From: Agromyces aureus
GTDB lineage: Bacteria > Actinomycetota > Actinomycetes > Actinomycetales > Microbacteriaceae
Assembly: GCF_001660485.1 (NCBI RefSeq)
Contig: NZ_CP013979.1
Coordinates: forward strand, 3,658,001-3,722,000
DNA: 64,000 bases
Direction: 5' to 3'
Part shown: one piece after another, positions 15,666 to 54,813 of the stretch
How positions within the stretch are numbered: the stretch's first letter is position 1
Layout: each line of letters opens with the position of its first letter
The notes under the pieces: model-generated
What the model was told of the DNA's origin: nothing
The model's input: the letters and a program-made list of their open reading frames with translations, nothing else
The model's database searches: none
Position numbers and translations under genes: made by a program

Positions 15666-18600
15666 TCACGCCTCGAGCAGCCCCCGGAGGTCGTCGGCCG
15701 TGAGCGCCTCTGCTGCACGCGGGTCTGCGGCATCCGTTCCCTCGTCGAGGATCGACGCGACGAGCTCGCCCTTGCGGGCCTTGAGCGCCATGACCTTCTG
15801 CTCGATGGTGTCGGCCGCGACGAGCCGATAGACCATGACCTGCTTGGTCTGCCCGATGCGGTGCGCGCGGTCGACGGCCTGCGCCTCGCTCGCGGGGTTC
15901 CACCACGGGTCGAGCAGGAACACGTAGTCGGCCTCGGTGAGGTTCAGCCCGAATCCGCCGGCCTTCAGGCTGATCAGGAACACGGATGCCTCGCCCGACC
16001 GGAACCGTTCGATCTCGGCGTCGCGGCGGCCGGCCGGGGTCGAGCCGTCGAGGTAGGCGTACGGCACGCCGGCGGTGTCGAGCCGCGAGCGCGCCCGACC
16101 GAGGAACGTCGTGAACTGGCTGAACACGAGCGCTCGATGCCCCTCGGCGAGCACGTCGTCGAGCTGCTCGAACAGCGCGTCGAGCTTGGCCGACGGCACG
16201 CTCCGGTAGGCATCGTCATCGATGAGCGTCGCGTCGAGCGCGAGCATGCGCAGCAGCGTGAGCGAGCGGTAGACGATGAAGCGGTTGCGGTCGAGGTCGT
16301 CGATGAGGCCGAGGAGCTTCTGCCGTTCGCGCTGCAGCACGGTGTCGTAGAGCCGCCGGTGCGACGGCGCGAGCGTCACCTCGAGCACCTGCTCCTGCTT
16401 CGCGGGCAACTCGGGCTCGACGCCGGCTTTCGTGCGTCGCAGCATGAGCGGGCGGATGCGTCGGCGCAGGCGGTCGCGACGCTCGAGGTTGCGATCGAGT
16501 TCGATCGGGCGGCGGTACTGCTCGTCGAAGCGGCGACGCGACGGGAACAGCCCCGGCGCCACGATCTGCAGGATCGCCCACAGCTCGCCGAGGTCGTTCT
16601 CGATCGGGGTGCCCGTGACCGCGAGCCGGAAGGGAGCACGGATGCCGCGGGCCGCCGCATGCACCTTGGTCGCCGCGTTCTTCACGAACTGCGCCTCGTC
16701 GAGCACGAGCCCGCCCCACTCGAGCGCGCCGAACGCCTCGGCCTCGAGGCGCAGCACCGCGTACGTCGTGATGACGAGGTCGGCGTCGGCCGCGGCCTCC
16801 GCGATGCTGCCCCGACGCTTCGCCTGGGTCGCGGTGACGGATGCCACGCGCAGGCCGGGCGTGAACCGAGCCGCCTCGCGGGCCCAGTTCGATGCGACCG
16901 AGGTCGGCGCGACGACGAGGAACGGCGCGTGGCCGTCCGCCGGTCGAGGAGGCGCGCCACCTTCCGCCGGTCGAGGAGGCGCGCCAGCGCCGTCTCGAGA
17001 CCCACCCCGCTCCTGGTCTCGAGACGCTCCTCCGTCGCTCCTCGACCGACGGAGCTCGACGGCATGCGCGACGAGCGCGAGCGTCTGCGCGGTCTTGCCG
17101 AGGCCCATGTCGTCGGCGAGGATGCCGCCGAGCCGGCCCTGCCAGAGGTAGGCGAGCCATCGGAAGCCGGCGAGCTGATAGGGCCGCAGCGGCAGCGCGA
17201 GTCCGGCGGGCTCGGGCAGCGCCTCGACCTGCCCGTGCTCGAGGGCTTCGACGCTGCGGCGCCATGACACCGCGGGTTCGGCGATGTCGGCCAGGTCTTC
17301 GAAGTCGGCCCAGAGGCTCGTGCGGCTCGCATGGATGCGCACGCCCGTCTCCCACTCGGCGAGCGTGCCGGCCTCCTCGATGAGCTCGCGCAGCGGGTCG
17401 AAGATCGACTGGTTGAGCATGAGGTACGTCTTGTCGACGAGCAGCAGTCGGCGCTGCCCCTTCGCGAGCGCCCGGAACAGCGGCATGAACGGCACCATGC
17501 GACCGTCGATCGTGATGACGACGCCGAGGTCGAACCAGTCGGTCTTGCGCGACTCGACCGTGGTGACGCGCACCTTCGGCGGCTCGGTGAGCAGCCGGTA
17601 GTCGGGTCGGTCGCCGCGCTCGTCGATGCGCAGCGGATGCCGCGCGGCCAACGCCTCGATGCCCGGCAGGCGCTCGGCGACGAACTCCGCCGCGTCGACG
17701 CCCCGCAGCAGCACGGTGTCGAGCGGCACCCAGCCGAGCAGGTCGGACACCCGGGCGAGCAGGTCGTCGTCGAGATCGGGGTCGAGCACGGCGGCGGCGA
17801 TGATCGCCGCGTGCGCCGCTCGCTCGCCGAGCCTGCCGGCGGCCACGATCGGGATCGTGCGCCCGTCGGCGCGCTGCCAGTGCCACTCGAGTCGGAGCAC
17901 GTCGTGCGGCTCGAACCGCAGGTCGAGCACGAGCATGGTCGGCGCCGGAGGGGGCGGCTCGAACGACCCGTCGCGGCTCGTCACGTCGACCGACCCGGCG
18001 AGGGCCGGGTACGCGCGCAGGAACTCGGGCACGTCGCCAGCCGGCACGTGCACTGCGGCCGGGGCCGCGAGCAGGCCTCGCGCCGCCTCGGTGGGCGGCG
18101 CGGCGAACGGCGCGAGCTCGAGGCATCCGTCGTCGAAGTCGAAGCGGTAGACCCCGTGCGAGCCCACCGCGCGCACGTCGGCGAGCGCGCGCGGCGAACC
18201 GTCGAACGCGAGCTCGGGGGTGAGCGTCAGCGCGCCGTCGGCGGCCTCGTGCACGTCGAGCGCGATCGTCGCGGCAGCGTGCACGACGACGTCGGGCGTG
18301 GCTTCCGACCCGACGAGCCCGATGCCGAGCCTCGCGGCCTCGGCGAGCAGCGCCCACAGCAGCGGGCTCTCGAACTCGTCGAGCGTGACCCACTCGGACC
18401 CGTAGGTCGTGAACACGCTCGGCGAGCTGCCCTTCAGCAGCGCGAACTGCGCGAACCATCGCGCGTGCGCCGGGTCGAAGCCGCCGGCCTCGCCCTGGTA
18501 GGCGATGTTCTGCCAGGTCAGCGCGCCCTTGATCCACGCGCCGCGTGCACCCTGCGTGACCGGTCGAACCGCGAGACGGTCGACGGATGTCGCGCGCCGG

Positions 18601-18824
18601 GCGGGTTCGTCGCGCGGGCCCTGCCACTCACCGCTGCGACGCTGCACCTTGCGCCGCAACTCGAACTGCAGCCCCAAGCGCTTGGTCGGCCCGCCTTCGG
18701 CGCCGCGGGCGTCGGCGCCGGATCTCGGGTCACTCGCAGCCGGGGGTGCCGCGCCCAGCGGGGCGAGCACCGCGCGCCAATCGCCCGCGCGCCAATCGGG
18801 GGTGGGCGGCGGCGAGTCGGTCAC
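15666..18824 (-). CDS. SNF2-family DEAD/DEAH-box helicase
   Basis: About 1052-aa SWI2/SNF2-type ATPase. An N-terminal non-catalytic half (SWIM/bacterial-SNF2-associated type) is followed by the helicase core: motif I ADDMGLGKTAQT (~residue 573), motif II DEAQ (~707), motif III TGTPIEND, and the C-terminal RecA lobe with FSQFTTFLG, SLKAGGFGLNL and motif VI QAVDRAHRIGQ (~980). It is an ATP-driven DNA translocase, possibly assisting RNA polymerase recycling or repair. Between motifs I and Ia, residues ~593-630 are encoded by a dispersed palindromic repeat, inserted in frame as an Ala/Pro/Arg-rich surface loop. GTG 18824 is preferred; an ATG at 18866 would add 14 residues. No obvious operon partner is present. 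Confidence 0.88.
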   Translation of the reverse strand: MTDSPPPTPDWRAGDWRAVLAPLGAAPPAASDPRSGADARGAEGGPTKRLGLQFELRRKVQRRSGEWQGPRDEPARRATSVDRLAVRPVTQGARGAWIKGALTWQNIAYQGEAGGFDPAHARWFAQFALLKGSSPSVFTTYGSEWVTLDEFESPLLWALLAEAARLGIGLVGSEATPDVVVHAAATIALDVHEAADGALTLTPELAFDGSPRALADVRAVGSHGVYRFDFDDGCLELAPFAAPPTEAARGLLAAPAAVHVPAGDVPEFLRAYPALAGSVDVTSRDGSFEPPPPAPTMLVLDLRFEPHDVLRLEWHWQRADGRTIPIVAAGRLGERAAHAAIIAAAVLDPDLDDDLLARVSDLLGWVPLDTVLLRGVDAAEFVAERLPGIEALAARHPLRIDERGDRPDYRLLTEPPKVRVTTVESRKTDWFDLGVVITIDGRMVPFMPLFRALAKGQRRLLLVDKTYLMLNQSIFDPLRELIEEAGTLAEWETGVRIHASRTSLWADFEDLADIAEPAVSWRRSVEALEHGQVEALPEPAGLALPLRPYQLAGFRWLAYLWQGRLGGILADDMGLGKTAQTLALVAHAVELRRSRSDGGASRDQERGGSRDGAGAPPRPAEGGAPPRPADGHAPFLVVAPTSVASNWAREAARFTPGLRVASVTATQAKRRGSIAEAAADADLVITTYAVLRLEAEAFGALEWGGLVLDEAQFVKNAATKVHAAARGIRAPFRLAVTGTPIENDLGELWAILQIVAPGLFPSRRRFDEQYRRPIELDRNLERRDRLRRRIRPLMLRRTKAGVEPELPAKQEQVLEVTLAPSHRRLYDTVLQRERQKLLGLIDDLDRNRFIVYRSLTLLRMLALDATLIDDDAYRSVPSAKLDALFEQLDDVLAEGHRALVFSQFTTFLGRARSRLDTAGVPYAYLDGSTPAGRRDAEIERFRSGEASVFLISLKAGGFGLNLTEADYVFLLDPWWNPASEAQAVDRAHRIGQTKQVMVYRLVAADTIEQKVMALKARKGELVASILDEGTDAADPRAAEALTADDLRGLLEA
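16936..17047. repeat. Dispersed palindromic repeat inserted in the SNF2 gene
   Basis: Two tandem copies of the left arm (CCGCCGGTCGAGGAGGCGCG) are followed by GTCTCGAGACC, a short spacer, then the right arm GGTCTCGAGACG...CTCCTCGACC. Members of the same family are at 33972-34059, 37042-37083, 41321-41366 and 54686-54798. On the coding (minus) strand this copy encodes GAGAPPRPAEGGAPPRPADG. Confidence 0.85.
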
Positions 18825-19112
18825 CCGTTCATGCTCGCACGTGCCGCCGACCCCCGCCCTCGGCATCCGCTCGCCTCATCCGCCCGGATCATTCGCCCGC
18901 GCGTCCGTCACACGGCGTCATCGACCCTGCGTCACGAAGCGCAACATCCGCACCCTCGAACTGCCCTGGATCCCGGATTCACGGTCATTCCGTGTCGCAT
19001 GACGTAACCGGCATTCACACCGCGACATGCTCCGGCACCGGCCTCCCGGGTTTCACTACGTTCACGTCATGCCCTGCCGCACCACGCTCAACGCCGACCC
19101 GAACACGACCCG

Positions 19113-20603
19113 ATGATCGACCTCGACTGGCTCTCATTGGCGGCACTCGCCGCGACCGCCGCACTCTTCGTCGGCGTCTACTTCCTGCGACGCGCCGGCG
19201 CCTCGTTCACCCTGCTCACCGTCATCGCGCTCGTGGTGGGCATCGGCGTCGGCCTGCTGTTCCAGGGGCACCTCGACTACGTCGACGTGATCGGCACCGT
19301 GTACGTGAACGTCATCACCGCGATCGTCGCGCCGCTCATCATCGTGTCGGTGCTCGCGAGCATCACGTCGCTCGGCAGCCTCGCGAAGCTGCGCACCATC
19401 GGCCTCAGCTCGGTGTTCTGGCTGCTGCTCACGAACCTCATCGCGATCCTGCTGACGCTGGGCCTCGCCCTGGCCACCGGCATCGGCACCGGCGCGCAGC
19501 TCGAACTCGCGGGCGTCGACGGCTCGACCCTGACCGGTCTGCTGCGACCCCTCGACGAGGTGATCGTCGGGCTCTTCCCGTCGAACGTCGTCGGCGACAT
19601 CGCGTCGAACAACATCATCGGCATCATCCTCTTCACGCTGCTGATCGCCGTGTCGTACCTGCTCGTCGCCGATCGCAAGCCCGAGAAGGTGCGTGCGTTC
19701 AAAGACGTGGTCGACGCGACCAAGCGCGTGTTCTTCAAGGCCGTCGGCTTCATCATCGCGCTCACCCCGTATGCGGTGCTCGCGCTCGTCGCCTCGACCA
19801 CGTCGACCGCGGTCGCCCGTCTCGAGACGGCGCTCTCGCTCATCGGCGTCCTCGTCATCGCCATGGTCGCCTGCTTCGTCGACGCCTACCTCGTGAACGG
19901 CGTGCTCGTGAAGGTCTTCGCGGACCTCTCGCCGCTGCGCTTCTTCAAGCTCATCACGCCGCCGCAATACACGGCCTTCACGACCCAGTCGAGCATCGGC
20001 ACGCTGCCGCTGACGATCTCGACCCTGGTGCGCAAGGTCGGCGTCAGCGAGGAGGTCGCCGGCTTCACCGCTCCCATCGGCACCACCATCGGCATGCCGG
20101 GCTGCGCGGGCATCTGGCCCACGCTCGTCGCGGTGTTCACGGTCAACGCGCTCGGCATCGAGTACACGGTGCTCGACTACGTCGTGCTCGTCGTGCTCGG
20201 GCTGCTCGTGAGCCTCGGCACGGCCGGCGTCCCCGGCACCGCGATCATCACGGCCACCGCGGTGCTCACCGCCGTCGGGCTCCCGATCGAGGTGCTCGTG
20301 CTGCTCATCCCGATCAGCGCGATCGCGGGCACCGCCAGCACCATGGCCAACGTGACCGCCGCGGCCACCAGCGCAGCGATCGTGGCGCGTCGCGCCGGAG
20401 CCCTCGACGACGAGATCTTCGCGGGCCGTCGTCACGCGCCCGACGACGAGGACGACGCCGACGCGAGCACGACCCCCACGGCCGCGCCCGCCGCCGCGCC
20501 AGCGCCCGCCGCCGCACCCACGCCCGCCGCCCACGCTGCTGCCACCGACTCCGCCACCACCGCAGACGACACCGCCACCGCTCGACTCACGCCGGTCCCG
20601 TGA
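19113..20603 (+). CDS. Dicarboxylate/amino acid:cation symporter (DAACS)
   Basis: 496-aa membrane transporter of the DAACS/GltP-TcyP fold, with about 8-10 hydrophobic segments. The helical-hairpin and substrate regions show FTTQSSIGTLPLTI, the family Ser-rich hairpin (ssIgTLP), and PIGTTIGMPGCAGIWPT, followed by GTAGVPGTAIITATAVL. The motif set is closer to L-cystine/TcyP-like members than to plain glutamate carriers, but the substrate cannot be fixed. The last ~60 residues are a cytoplasmic Ala/Pro/Thr/Asp-rich tail. It is first in an apparent operon with two sortase-anchored proteins (gaps 23 and 44 bp). The ribosome-binding site before ATG 19113 is weak. The ~290-bp upstream region has no recognisable element. 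Confidence 0.85.
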   Translation: MIDLDWLSLAALAATAALFVGVYFLRRAGASFTLLTVIALVVGIGVGLLFQGHLDYVDVIGTVYVNVITAIVAPLIIVSVLASITSLGSLAKLRTIGLSSVFWLLLTNLIAILLTLGLALATGIGTGAQLELAGVDGSTLTGLLRPLDEVIVGLFPSNVVGDIASNNIIGIILFTLLIAVSYLLVADRKPEKVRAFKDVVDATKRVFFKAVGFIIALTPYAVLALVASTTSTAVARLETALSLIGVLVIAMVACFVDAYLVNGVLVKVFADLSPLRFFKLITPPQYTAFTTQSSIGTLPLTISTLVRKVGVSEEVAGFTAPIGTTIGMPGCAGIWPTLVAVFTVNALGIEYTVLDYVVLVVLGLLVSLGTAGVPGTAIITATAVLTAVGLPIEVLVLLIPISAIAGTASTMANVTAAATSAAIVARRAGALDDEIFAGRRHAPDDEDDADASTTPTAAPAAAPAPAAAPTPAAHAAATDSATTADDTATARLTPVP

Positions 20604-33971: not shown

Positions 33972-34059
33972 GCCGGTCGAGGAGGCACGCCAGCGCCGTC
34001 TCGAGACCAGCGCACCGGCCCGAAACGCTGGTCTCGAGACGCTTCGCTCCTCGACCGGC
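33972..34059. repeat. Complete dispersed palindromic repeat
   Basis: The best copy of the family. The left arm GCCGGTCGAGGAGGC runs into CGTCTCGAGACCAGCG (33997-34012), the loop is 13 nt, and the right arm CGCTGGTCTCGAGACG (34026-34041) ends with CTCCTCGACCGGC. The inner stem is a perfect 16 bp. It lies between the upstream ends of the reductase and monooxygenase genes. It could act as a terminator or structural RNA element when transcribed. Confidence 0.85.
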
Positions 34060-37041: not shown

Positions 37042-37083
37042 CCGCCGGTCGAGGAGGCGCGCGCCAGCGCCGTCTCGAGACCC
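37042..37083. repeat. Partial dispersed palindromic repeat (left arm only)
   Basis: CCGCCGGTCGAGGAGGCGCG followed by GCCAGCGCCGTCTCGAGACCC; no matching right arm follows. It lies in the gap between the metY-like gene and the YTETDF-repeat gene. Confidence 0.75.
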
Positions 37084-37186: not shown

Positions 37187-37453
37187 ATGACCAACCCCGA
37201 GAACACCCCCGCCGGCGATCGCGGCGACTACACCGAGACGGACTTCCGCGACGGCGACGAGAAGCCGAACGTCGGCGTTCCCGGCGACTACACCGAGACG
37301 GACTTCCGTGACGGCGACGAGAAGCCGAACGTCGGCGAGGGCGAGTACACCGAGACCGACTTCGGCGACGGCGCGGCGCCGCCCACCGGGGGCGAGGGCG
37401 AGTTCACCGACACCGACTTCGGGCACCACGCGAAGGGCGACTCCGCCGACTGA
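37187..37453 (+). CDS. Small acidic YTETDF-repeat protein 1
   Basis: 88-aa very acidic soluble protein. It consists almost entirely of a repeat: DYTETDFRDGDEKPNVG twice, then EYTETDFGDG, then EFTDTDFGHH. The first two units are a 60-bp DNA tandem duplication with one silent difference. No signal peptide, hydrophobic segment or known domain is present; it is probably intrinsically disordered. A start at 37184 (one Met earlier) is also possible; both follow GGATGGAG. A paralogue with the same motif is at 37667. The function is not recognised. Confidence 0.65.
   Translation: MTNPENTPAGDRGDYTETDFRDGDEKPNVGVPGDYTETDFRDGDEKPNVGEGEYTETDFGDGAAPPTGGEGEFTDTDFGHHAKGDSAD
37222..37337. repeat. 60-bp period tandem duplication
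   Basis: Two copies of a ~56-bp segment (37222-37277 and 37282-37337) differ at one silent position (CCGCG versus CCGTG). The near identity shows a recent duplication inside the YTETDF gene. Confidence 0.85.
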
Positions 37454-37520
37454 GCGTTCGGGCCGAACGGCTCGCCCGCACGACCGCCCGGCGCCGGTCC
37501 GGCGGGCCGGTCTGCGTCAA

Positions 37521-37547
37521 GCCTGCCTGCCTGCCTACCTGCCTGCC
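37521..37547. repeat. GCCT tetranucleotide microsatellite
   Basis: About six GCCT units, with one interruption by an A. It sits between the two YTETDF genes and could vary in length by slippage; no reading frame crosses it. Confidence 0.7.
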
Positions 37548-37666
37548 GAGCGGATGCCGCGGCCTCCGTCGTTCGCACCTCACTGTCAAGCCCCTCGCCA
37601 CCGACCGGGCCCGGGGTGAGAGTGGAGGTCCTGCGTCGGTCGGCGCGGCGAACGGACGGAGCGACC

Positions 37667-37966
37667 ATGACGGATCCCCAGAACACCAAGCCCTTCTTCC
37701 CCGACGCCGACGCGCCCGACGGCGACGGCGAGTACACCGAGACGGACTTCGGCGGCGGCAGCCGTCCGAGCACCGACGACGTCGAAGGCGAGTACACCGA
37801 GAGCGACCTCGGCGGGACCGGCCGCGAGGACGCGGAGCACGCCGAGGGCACGGCGGGCGGCGACCGCCGCGACCATGACGGACCTGGAGCGCCCGGCAAC
37901 GCCGAGCCGATGTCGGAGTCGACCGAGGGCGGCCTCCGCGCCGGAGACCCGGGCGTCGAGGAATGA
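37667..37966 (+). CDS. Small acidic YTETDF-repeat protein 2
   Basis: 99-aa acidic protein with the same short motif as its upstream neighbour: GEYTETDFGGGS and GEYTESDLGGTG, flanked by Asp/Gly/Glu-rich, probably disordered sequence. The leader before ATG 37667 (GGCGCGGCGAACGGACGGAGCG) closely resembles the leader of protein 1, supporting duplication of gene plus control region. It ends with a 4-bp ATGA overlap with the next small gene, so the two are translationally coupled. The function is unknown. Confidence 0.65.
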   Translation: MTDPQNTKPFFPDADAPDGDGEYTETDFGGGSRPSTDDVEGEYTESDLGGTGREDAEHAEGTAGGDRRDHDGPGAPGNAEPMSESTEGGLRAGDPGVEE

Positions 37967-41171: not shown

Positions 41172-41231
41172 CGCGCACTACTCTGTAACCCTGCAACTCG
41201 TTCTGCGGGGCGAGGTCACGGGCCGAGCCTC

Positions 41232-41293
41232 GGTACTCCGGTACTCCGGTACTCCGGTACTCCGGCACTCCGGCACTCCGGCACTCCGGCACT
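41232..41293. repeat. 8-bp tandem repeat (minisatellite)
   Basis: Units GGTACTCC x4 followed by GGCACTCC x3 and a partial GGCACT, about 7.75 copies. It is non-coding, downstream of the PKD-protein gene. The block change from GGTA to GGCA units shows expansion of two variants, so copy number may be variable between strains. Confidence 0.9.
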
Positions 41294-41320: not shown

Positions 41321-41366
41321 GAGGTCTCGATACGCGGCCTCCTTCGTCGGGCGCTACTCGACCGGC
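41321..41366. repeat. Dispersed palindromic repeat, right-arm type
   Basis: GAGGTCTCGATACGCGGCCT...CTACTCGACCGGC matches the right arm of the repeat family (GGTCTCGAGACG...CTCGACC) with divergence. It lies directly after the 8-bp minisatellite. Confidence 0.65.
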
Positions 41367-53211: not shown

Positions 53212-54813
53212 TCAGGCACCGTCGACGTCGAGCGCCCCCGGGTAGAGCTCGTCGAGCAGCCCGAGCGCCATCTCCCGCAGCAGTTCCTCCAGCTCCCGCT
53301 CCAGCCGCTGCACGCGCTCCTCGCCGTCTCCTCGCCACGCCCAGATCGCGGCGAGCCGATCCTGCTCCGCCACGACCGCGTCGACCACCATCGGCCGCCA
53401 GTGCGCCGGGTACTCGCCCTCGCGCCAGGCGCCGCGCCCGCGGCCGTAGTGCGCGACCGCCAGGTAGCGCAGCAGCGCCGAGGTCACGAGCCCGTCGAGG
53501 AACGCCTCCTCCCAGCGCAGGCTCGACTCGGTGCGACCGCGCACGACGTTGACGCCCTGTGCGACGCCCGCGCCGCCGAGCGCCCCGATGATCGCGCCGG
53601 CGACCATGCCCGCGCCGAACGTGAGCCCGCCGGCCAGAAGGTCGGCGCCGAGTCCCGTGAGCGCGCCAGAGACGACGCCGCCCAGCGCGGCGGTGCGGGT
53701 GCCGTCGAGCGGCGCGTCGAGGTGCACGCCGTCGGCCACGCGCTCCAGCACCTCGTCGGCGGCCCGCCCCTCGAGCCGGTGGATCGCGATGAGCCGTTCC
53801 ATGCCCCGCCGCAGGTCGGCCTGCAGTCGGGCAGCCATCTCGTCGGTGGCAACCGATCGCGCCTTCGTGCGTGCCGCGTTCGGCAGCCCGAACGATCCGG
53901 TGACCCGGTTCGTGAGCGGTTCGGCCGGCAGCGTGACCCGGTCGGCGGCGGCGCGGGCGATCGGCCCGGCGAGCGCAGCCATCGACGCGTCGAACTCGCC
54001 CATGCGGAGGTCGCGCCACGCGGCCGACAGCCGCGAGAAGGCCCGCCCCGAGGCATCCGGAACCAGCGGTTCGATCGCGGCGAACAACGTGAACTCCTGC
54101 ACCCAGCAGCGCGCGAACGCGTCGAAGGCGAGCACGTCGCGCACGTTCGTGGTGGGGCCGAGCGCGGCACGCCAGCGCGCGGCATCCGCTTCTTCAGCAG
54201 CCCGCTCGCGCGGTGGACCGGTCTGGTTGAGCAGCACGAGCACGGGCTTGCCGATCCACTCGAGCACCTCGAGCTCGGGGGCGAGGTAGCCGGCGTCGGC
54301 GGGCGCCTCGGCGGCGTTCACGAGGTAGAGCACGACGTCGGCCTGCTCGGCGACGTTGCGCACGGCGAGCTGGCTGAGCCACAGCGCGCGATCCTGGTAG
54401 CGGTCCCACACCTGCGTCAGGAACCAGCCGATGGGGTTGCGGTCCTGCCGCAGCCGACGCGCGAGGCGCACGCTGTCGCCGAAGCCCGGGGTGTCCCACA
54501 GCGTCAGCAGGTCGCCGTCGGAGGTCTGCACGAGCGGGAACGGCGTCGCCTCGGCGGTGACGTGCGGGGCGTCGCGCACCTCGCCGACGTCGCGTCCGAG
54601 CAGCGTGCGCGCGAGCGTCGTCTTGCCCGCGTTGGTGTGCGAGATGAGCGAGAGCGACACGGCGCCGGCGTCGAGGCCCGGGATGCCCGCCGGTTGAGGA
54701 GGCGCGCCAGCGCTGTCTCGAAACCCGCCCCCCGCGCTCCTGCTCGCCGGTCCCCCATCCGCCGGTCGAGGAGGCCGCGAAGCAGCCGTCTCGAGACCCT
54801 CCCCGTCGCTCAT
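53212..54813 (-). CDS. P-loop GTPase with DUF3482-type C-terminus
   Basis: 533-aa GTPase: P-loop SHTNAGKTTLARTLLG (~residues 58-73), G3 LWDTPGFGDSVR, G4 LLNQTG, and a long C-terminal part with membrane-prone Gly-rich segments (LLAGGLTFGAGMVAGAIIG, LGGAGVAQG) similar to DUF3482 GTPases. Its first ~40 residues (RPPRPADGGPASRSAGGG, then GAPPQPAG) are encoded by two copies of the dispersed repeat family. Its ATG overlaps the stop of the DUF2868 gene by 4 bp. DUF2868 and DUF3482 are known neighbours, probably a membrane-associated GTPase complex of unknown role. Confidence 0.78.
   Translation of the reverse strand: MSDGEGLETAASRPPRPADGGPASRSAGGGFRDSAGAPPQPAGIPGLDAGAVSLSLISHTNAGKTTLARTLLGRDVGEVRDAPHVTAEATPFPLVQTSDGDLLTLWDTPGFGDSVRLARRLRQDRNPIGWFLTQVWDRYQDRALWLSQLAVRNVAEQADVVLYLVNAAEAPADAGYLAPELEVLEWIGKPVLVLLNQTGPPRERAAEEADAARWRAALGPTTNVRDVLAFDAFARCWVQEFTLFAAIEPLVPDASGRAFSRLSAAWRDLRMGEFDASMAALAGPIARAAADRVTLPAEPLTNRVTGSFGLPNAARTKARSVATDEMAARLQADLRRGMERLIAIHRLEGRAADEVLERVADGVHLDAPLDGTRTAALGGVVSGALTGLGADLLAGGLTFGAGMVAGAIIGALGGAGVAQGVNVVRGRTESSLRWEEAFLDGLVTSALLRYLAVAHYGRGRGAWREGEYPAHWRPMVVDAVVAEQDRLAAIWAWRGDGEERVQRLERELEELLREMALGLLDELYPGALDVDGA
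54686..54798. repeat. Double dispersed palindromic repeat at the GTPase N-terminus
   Basis: Two left-arm-type copies in direct orientation: a diverged one at 54686-54724 (CCGCCGGTTGAGGAGGCGCG) and a good one at 54761-54798 (GCCGGTCGAGGAGG ... GTCTCGAGACC). Both are translated in the minus-strand GTPase gene as Pro/Ala/Gly/Arg-rich peptide. Confidence 0.8.

Follow-up and report, generated by a model that had tools for sequence, protein, structure and literature searches.

Repeat copies in the window

The window (the whole 64-kb stretch of DNA that we analysed) comes from the complete 4.37 Mb genome of Agromyces aureus. It includes a gene for an SNF2-family helicase, a gene for a GTPase, and copies of a short palindromic repeat, two of which are protein-coding (Table 1). 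A sequence-only reading of the window had placed repeats at 16936-17047, 33972-34059, 37042-37083, 41321-41366, and 54686-54798, and the repeat is present at all five sites. The perfect 16-bp stem reported for the intergenic copy at 33972 was borne out. The peptides RDGAGAPPRPA (SNF2) and RDSAGAPPQPA (GTPase) are both found in the translations. The SNF2 segment was said to lie between helicase motifs I and Ia, and it is indeed flanked by GLGKT and VVAPTS, which we take to be those two motifs of SNF2 helicases. That reading also claimed a shared orientation and frame for the SNF2 and GTPase copies. This is correct for one GTPase unit, but the frame of the other (GLETAASRPPRPA) differs.

Table 1. 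Features of the window, with positions numbered from its first nucleotide
Feature	Position	Strand	Evidence or comment
SNF2-family helicase gene with in-frame insert	15666..18866	-	Pfam SNF2-rel_dom and Helicase_C; translation
REP insert in SNF2, within the motif I-Ia loop; encodes RRSRSDGGASRDQERGGSRDGAGAPPRPAEGGAPPRPADG	16937..17047	.	absent in A. allii
SNF2 insert: partial arm	16937-16963		
SNF2 insert: unit	16969-17002	+	
SNF2 insert: unit	17015-17047	-	
Two inverted REP units with an inner stem of 16 bp, in the gap between two minus-strand genes	33975..34056	.	
One REP unit in the gap between divergent genes	37047..37082	+	
Single REP unit, GTAG/GTATC sister type	41323..41363	-	
GTPase gene, MMR_HSR1 and DUF3482; N-terminus mostly REP units	53212..54813	-	Pfam, translation
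Second REP unit of the GTPase N-terminus, read FRDSAGAPPQPAG	54692..54725	+	none at this site in nine relatives
First REP unit of the GTPase N-terminus, read GLETAASRPPRPA	54764..54798	+	

Neither coding copy has a stop codon in any of the three coding-strand frames. For the SNF2, 33975, and 37047 copies, all six frames are open; the GTPase and 41323 copies have one stopped frame each.

The window has other repetitive features. A tandem array of TACTCCGG/CACTCCGG octamers lies at 41230-41290, upstream of the sister-type REP unit. At 37198-37880, segments of about 20 codons are repeated and have a common YTETDF-like core. Also, GGATGCC/GGCATCC is found 105 times across the window, versus 12.3 expected from dinucleotide shuffles.

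A hairpin with two types of arms

In the window and 65 fetched stretches, the repeat unit consists of GGTCGA, the tag GGAG or GTAG, a variable stem-loop, and GT[C/A]TCGAGACC. After the stem-loop, units end in GTCTCGAGACC or GTATCGAGACC. In a sister type of unit, GATAC/TACTCGACC replaces GAGAC/TCCTCGACC. Units are about 27-41 nt long and pairs are about 70-90 nt. With up to 3 mismatches, these sequences contain 108 units (76 match the GGAG form exactly) and 0 units of the backward-read pattern. (The stretches were picked around GTCTCGAGAC and BLAST hits, so copies of the sister type are under-sampled.) The most frequent linkers are CGAAGC (34) and GCGCGCCAGCGCC (18). The 108 units form 78 elements: 51 with one unit, 25 with two, 1 with three, and 1 with four. 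In 23 of the 25 two-unit elements, the units are oriented head to head.

GTCTCGAGAC occurs 93 times in the genome, and its reversed control occurs 0 times. Within the window alone, GGTCGAGGAG is enriched at up to 1 mismatch (48 occurrences vs. 14.3 expected), and the short core TCTCGAGAC, also at up to 1 mismatch, is not (34 vs. 38.3 expected). The core GTCTCGAGAC can also be found without any unit (in stretches L105, L116, and L118 and at window position 19819). The proof of the repeat rests on whole units; short fuzzy cores by themselves carry none.

We then examined whether the arms covary, using 161 units collected from the loci fetched by then with the two arm positions unconstrained. In 156 of these, one position is G or T and the other is C or A. 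The pairing is G-C or T-A in 142 of the 156 and mixed in 14 (p = 1.9e-27, Fisher exact test; such values overstate independence because the units share descent). In other genera (17 genomes), 56 of 57 distinct units are G-C or T-A, among the matches listed. Linker stems are stronger than in shuffled controls and, again among the matches listed, the folding energy of the linker is below the mean of its own shuffles for 55 of 57 units from outside the genus. The hairpin is structurally constrained.

The tag is GTAG in 60 units and GGAG in 95. A perfect stem of at least 4 bp directly follows the tag in 38 of the GTAG units and 30 of the GGAG units. In the T-A type, GTAG appears to sit immediately before the stem-loop; the dominant type in the A. 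aureus genome has GGAG. No Rfam family reached its gathering score in the 64-kb window. Overall, the repeat is a REP-like hairpin that often forms head-to-head pairs, like a REPIN. As in REPs, it is a short imperfect palindrome with a high copy number and is mainly intergenic, and as in REPINs, the paired units are inverted and separated by a short spacer.

In-frame copies in SNF2 and the GTPase

The SNF2 loop was readable at 79 of 80 loci. In A. allii, it lacks the insert. Judged by eye, the same loop holds a degenerate copy in A. bauzanensis, a full T-A pair in A. bracchium, and a single copy in A. salentinus. In A. aureus, residues 603-646, which hold the repeat, lie opposite 6 residues of a solved structure (PDB:1z63). 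Arms with up to 1 mismatch are present in 4 of 12 Agromyces loops, one of which (L017) looks like chance; the controls gave a mean of 0.1 for shuffles (maximum 2) and 1.5 for gene segments (maximum 6). With up to 2 mismatches, there are 8 of 12, versus 5.9 for gene segments. Because the gene-segment control overlaps the arm counts, the case for SNF2 rests on the sequences themselves. Outside Agromyces, an arm is present in 2 of 66 SNF2 loops, which is not above controls. (The loop in Humibacter, L053, has a different repeat-like segment, SERSESKG.) The segment was proposed to be a repeat insertion rather than ancient protein sequence, and for SNF2 the ancient origin fails because orthologues either lack the segment or hold another REP copy at that loop.

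For the GTPase, we searched 41 genomes and found strong matches in ten others. Among the N-termini of nine of these ten relatives, four have a unit of the T-A (GATAC) type, one has a degenerate unit, and four have no clear unit. The four T-A units are read in the same frame (as GLDTAASLPTRPP or alike). The first unit of A. aureus has the odd linker of its relatives, along with the arms that are dominant in its own genome. This mixture suggests that the unit may have undergone conversion or parallel change. The second unit was not seen in the nine relatives, and the first is an older insertion that also occurs, with other arms, in relatives.

Captures in other proteins

Among the 78 elements, 51 are intergenic, 20 are inside genes, and 7 are at gene edges. 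(Genes were called with a purpose-written script that excludes repeat bases from scoring. It replaced a first gene-state model, which placed 63 of 78 elements in genes and which we judged to be unsound.) There are 23 elements that lie wholly within a called gene, and 13 of these are at least 100 nt from both ends. (The in-gene match L128:3822, with 3 mismatches, was considered chance and is left out of the coding counts.) The hosts of the 13 deep elements are an alpha-mannosidase, a penicillin amidase, two GntR regulators, DNA ligase D (LigD), a zinc-ribbon protein (with four tandem copies), a PspC protein, an ABC exporter, an acyltransferase, HrpA, a MobA-like protein, an AcrB-like pump, and SNF2. 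All 13 elements are in frame. In four of these hosts (LigD, the ABC exporter, and the two GntR regulators), the element is located between Pfam domains. More broadly, these unrelated proteins have captured copies in linkers between domains, at N- and C-termini, and in some loops within domains.

LigD has matches in 59 genomes, and we read 31 loci, with the linkers located by tblastn. An arm with up to 1 mismatch is present in 21 of the 31 linkers, although some lone hits (e.g., L204 and L224) may be chance; the mean is 0.9 for shuffles (maximum 4) and 3.7 for gene segments (maximum 9). With up to 2 mismatches, the count is 26 of 31, versus 10.1 for shuffles and 23.5 for gene segments. Because the gene-segment control comes close to it at 2 mismatches, only the stricter count is informative. 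The arrangement varies among near species: G043 is empty, A. aureus has '-+', and G059 has '+-'. On the LigD tree, parsimony gives 10 changes (with states assigned by eye). Both the length and the sequence of the linker vary freely, and some species have none. (In the LigD linkers of L216, L218, and L212, from other Agromyces, we saw a second, unrelated-looking repeat with VEPVETE/STRSVRQAH-like peptides.)

The insert in the ABC exporter is found only in A. aureus among the 18 loops listed of 30 loci. It is missing from G004 (96% identical) and G043, and G054 has another insertion. The MobA unit is common to A. aureus, G043, and G004, is degenerate in G054 and G039, and is missing in G059. The penicillin amidase and GntR inserts are missing in some relatives; in others, including A. 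terreus, they are present or have expanded in tandem. Two GntR proteins in the database, both labelled A. terreus, differ by 2 residues and a single 13-residue unit. For HrpA, we found no clean empty site, and the linkers of relatives are equally long and variable.

Thus, in SNF2, the ABC exporter, LigD, penicillin amidase, and GntR, the repeat lies in frame in unrelated genes and is missing from orthologues, as described for the palindromic elements of Rickettsia (RPEs). The host loops of SNF2 and the ABC exporter have diverged too far for a clean junction or target duplication to be defined. Not every copy is recent, as the MobA unit and one GTPase unit are common to several relatives.

Choice of reading frame

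All three frames are in use among 33 coding units. In reverse-oriented coding units, the outer arm is in the PRPA frame in 12 of 14 cases and in the LLDRR frame in 0 of 14, a bias that we recognised post hoc. Among forward coding units, the VEE frame is used in 1 of 16 (with the array counted once); VEE is used in the LigD of other species. The counts do not support a simple hydropathy rule for frame choice: of the three frames on the same strand, the gene uses the least hydropathic one in just 15 of 33 units.

The sharing of one frame by two genes had been viewed as special, but the 13 deep in-gene elements are in several frames. The peptide that is common to SNF2 and the GTPase is best explained by bias in the tolerated frame. 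The SRD...APPRPA peptide would recur because this open frame is the best tolerated, and it need not have any special function.

Origin and spread of the copies

We propose that the repeat is a REP/REPIN-type miniature hairpin that is dispersed, is captured in frame where it is tolerated, decays, and yields a frame-biased peptide. We put the probability of this explanation at roughly 0.87. Copies would arise by hairpin transfer, as for REPINs, via some enzyme or process. Insertions with a length divisible by three can be read through, giving about 10-40 extra residues, and selection would purge out-of-frame insertions as well as those that disrupt the core of the protein. The surviving inserts would be tolerated, would decay, and would at times grow in tandem by slippage. 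The presence or absence of copies in orthologues and the variation in copy number agree with the sequence-only reading's proposal of a small mobile or expanding element that is tolerated in frame.

Of 60 Agromyces genomes, 55 contain the G-C core (CGTCTCGAGACC) and 48 contain the T-A core (CGTATCGAGACC). The strand counts for the G-C core are 44+44 in A. aureus and 132+135 in G059; for the T-A core, they are 12+12 in A. aureus and 177+177 in G040. Copy number differs widely among species, from 0 to hundreds. Whole units with one class of linker are found in 50 of 249 genomes from the family and in 29 of 85 sampled genera, including Agromyces; these are lower bounds, as the search pattern misses the 13-base linker. 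We also considered a strand polarity linked to replication. In G005, the first places listed are all on the plus strand, but the fetched stretches are arrays of inverted pairs, so we rejected this idea. The single units of the A. aureus genome have no strand polarity.

What moves the repeat? A RAYT or transposase-like gene had been suggested, but PF01797 (RAYT, Y1 transposase) is present in 0 of the 60 Agromyces genomes (E ≤ 0.001), and none is found in the A. aureus genome even at E up to 10. The repeat might instead spread with no transposase, through gene conversion, through slippage, or when hairpin DNA is captured in the course of repair. Besides the missing RAYT, this would fit the tandem arrays (in L097 and A. 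terreus), the REP arrays in G005, and the first GTPase unit, which combines its own genome's arm type with its relatives' odd linker. However, the scattered presence and absence of copies at unrelated sites needs transfer to new places. We consider spread without a transposase to be a serious possibility, if a somewhat doubtful one.

Another possibility is that the intergenic copies act mainly as bidirectional terminators of transcription, selected at gene ends, with the coding copies as by-products. For 44 of the 51 intergenic elements, a gene end faces the element, and in 40 of these 44 it is within 60 nt. The median distance between elements and gene ends is 22.5 nt (66 distances). Convergent gaps are enriched (21/50 vs. 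42/171, p = 0.02). At three elements, the flanking genes end in PVE-stop, so the copies provide stop codons. These positions near stop codons would suit terminators. But other REPs are placed likewise, according to parts of PMC3733652, and insertion followed by purifying selection predicts the same placement. Copy numbers that range from 0 to hundreds between species also argue against a terminator role, and we think it rather unlikely. (On a larger scale, the region from 1.54-3.46 Mb, which is 44% of the chromosome and lies opposite the record start, holds just 3 of the 78 elements.)

We think it less likely still that, in Agromyces and its family, a RAYT-less population of REPs acts as a standing source of protein linkers. 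Permissive loops (SNF2 motif I-Ia, LigD, ABC, MobA, GntR, and penicillin amidase) would capture copies recurrently, the arms would be homogenised to the type current in the genome, copies would grow in tandem, some would be maintained as part of the protein, and a novel single-strand mechanism would move the hairpin.

Exaptation was also raised for the SNF2 and GTPase loops: the repeats could be useful disordered linkers that are under selection, for example between the domains of LigD. The same LigD linker has been hit repeatedly (21 of 31 loci), the GTPase unit stays in frame across several species, and the Pro/Ala-rich frame is preferred. But the LigD linker is free to vary in length and sequence and some species do without it, the MobA copies are decaying, and insert-free orthologues are common. 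As the linkers are not conserved and the copies decay, tolerance is a better fit, and exaptation seems improbable. Finally, it is very improbable that these segments are ancient protein sequence whose DNA looks repetitive through codon bias: relatives do share the MobA unit and one of the GTPase units, but the same DNA lies between genes in 51 of the 78 elements, it is read in different frames and in both orientations, and orthologous loops without the repeat contradict this for SNF2, the ABC exporter, and LigD.

Comparison to known repeats

The comparisons below draw on parts of the cited papers. In-frame intragenic REPs were described by Di Nocera 2013 (PMC3733652), with DNA-repair genes frequently hit. 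The same paper reports that REPs supply stop codons and sit near 3' ends, and that recB of two Xanthomonas species has different REPs at about one site. It mentions untagged REP-like sequences in Mycobacterium tuberculosis, and the word actinobacteria is absent from the portion of its text used here.

The Agromyces repeat resembles GTAG REPs and REPINs (PMC3733652; Bertels and Rainey 2011, PMC3116915) in its short hairpins, head-to-head pairs, and arrays. Like them, it lies near 3' ends and convergent genes, supplies stop codons, and has in-frame intragenic copies, and in its T-A type GTAG appears to sit right before the stem-loop. It differs in that the dominant type has GGAG with a compensating change, and in its longer outer arms (GGTCGA/TCGAGACC). 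Also, unlike RAYT-linked REPs, it occurs in a genus with no RAYT found in 60 genomes. RAYT-free E. coli genomes also hold REPINs, according to parts of PMC8049555.

CGTC-tagged REPs, including RPE-4 and RPE-6 of Rickettsia (PMC3733652), are similar in being dispersed hairpins without a dedicated transposase and in having in-frame copies. In a comparison by eye, CGTC can be found after the stem-loop of the Agromyces G-C type, and we did not see the AT-starting 8-9 bp stem, 4-5 base loop, or CCA tail of these REPs. RPEs such as RPE-1 (~150 bp; reviewed in PMC10969869, on Ogata 2000 and 2002) are likewise palindromic selfish DNA that lies in frame in unrelated genes. In contrast to RPEs, the Agromyces units are ~27-41 nt, the host is a GC-rich actinobacterium, and the same loops capture the repeat again and again across species. 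Like MITEs, the repeats are small, non-autonomous, dispersed inverted repeats, but single units exceed pairs, 51 to 25.

In the open-licence literature, we found no paper on this actinobacterial repeat family, its paired arm types, or recurrent genus-wide capture by loops. (In the part of the Agromyces genome paper PMC5217419 that we used, "palindromic" appears just to spell out CRISPR.) REPs that lie in frame within genes have been known in Proteobacteria and Rickettsia; the new aspects here are that the family is actinobacterial, with no RAYT detected, and that capture recurs on this scale.

This makes Agromyces a dense natural experiment in how selfish DNA becomes protein, with many in-frame captures in one genus. 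The system offers empty sites, repeated captures by one loop, and a difference in copy number between two proteins of one species. The expansion of a REP family in Agromyces, where our search found no Y1 transposase, is also relevant to the question of how these repeats spread.
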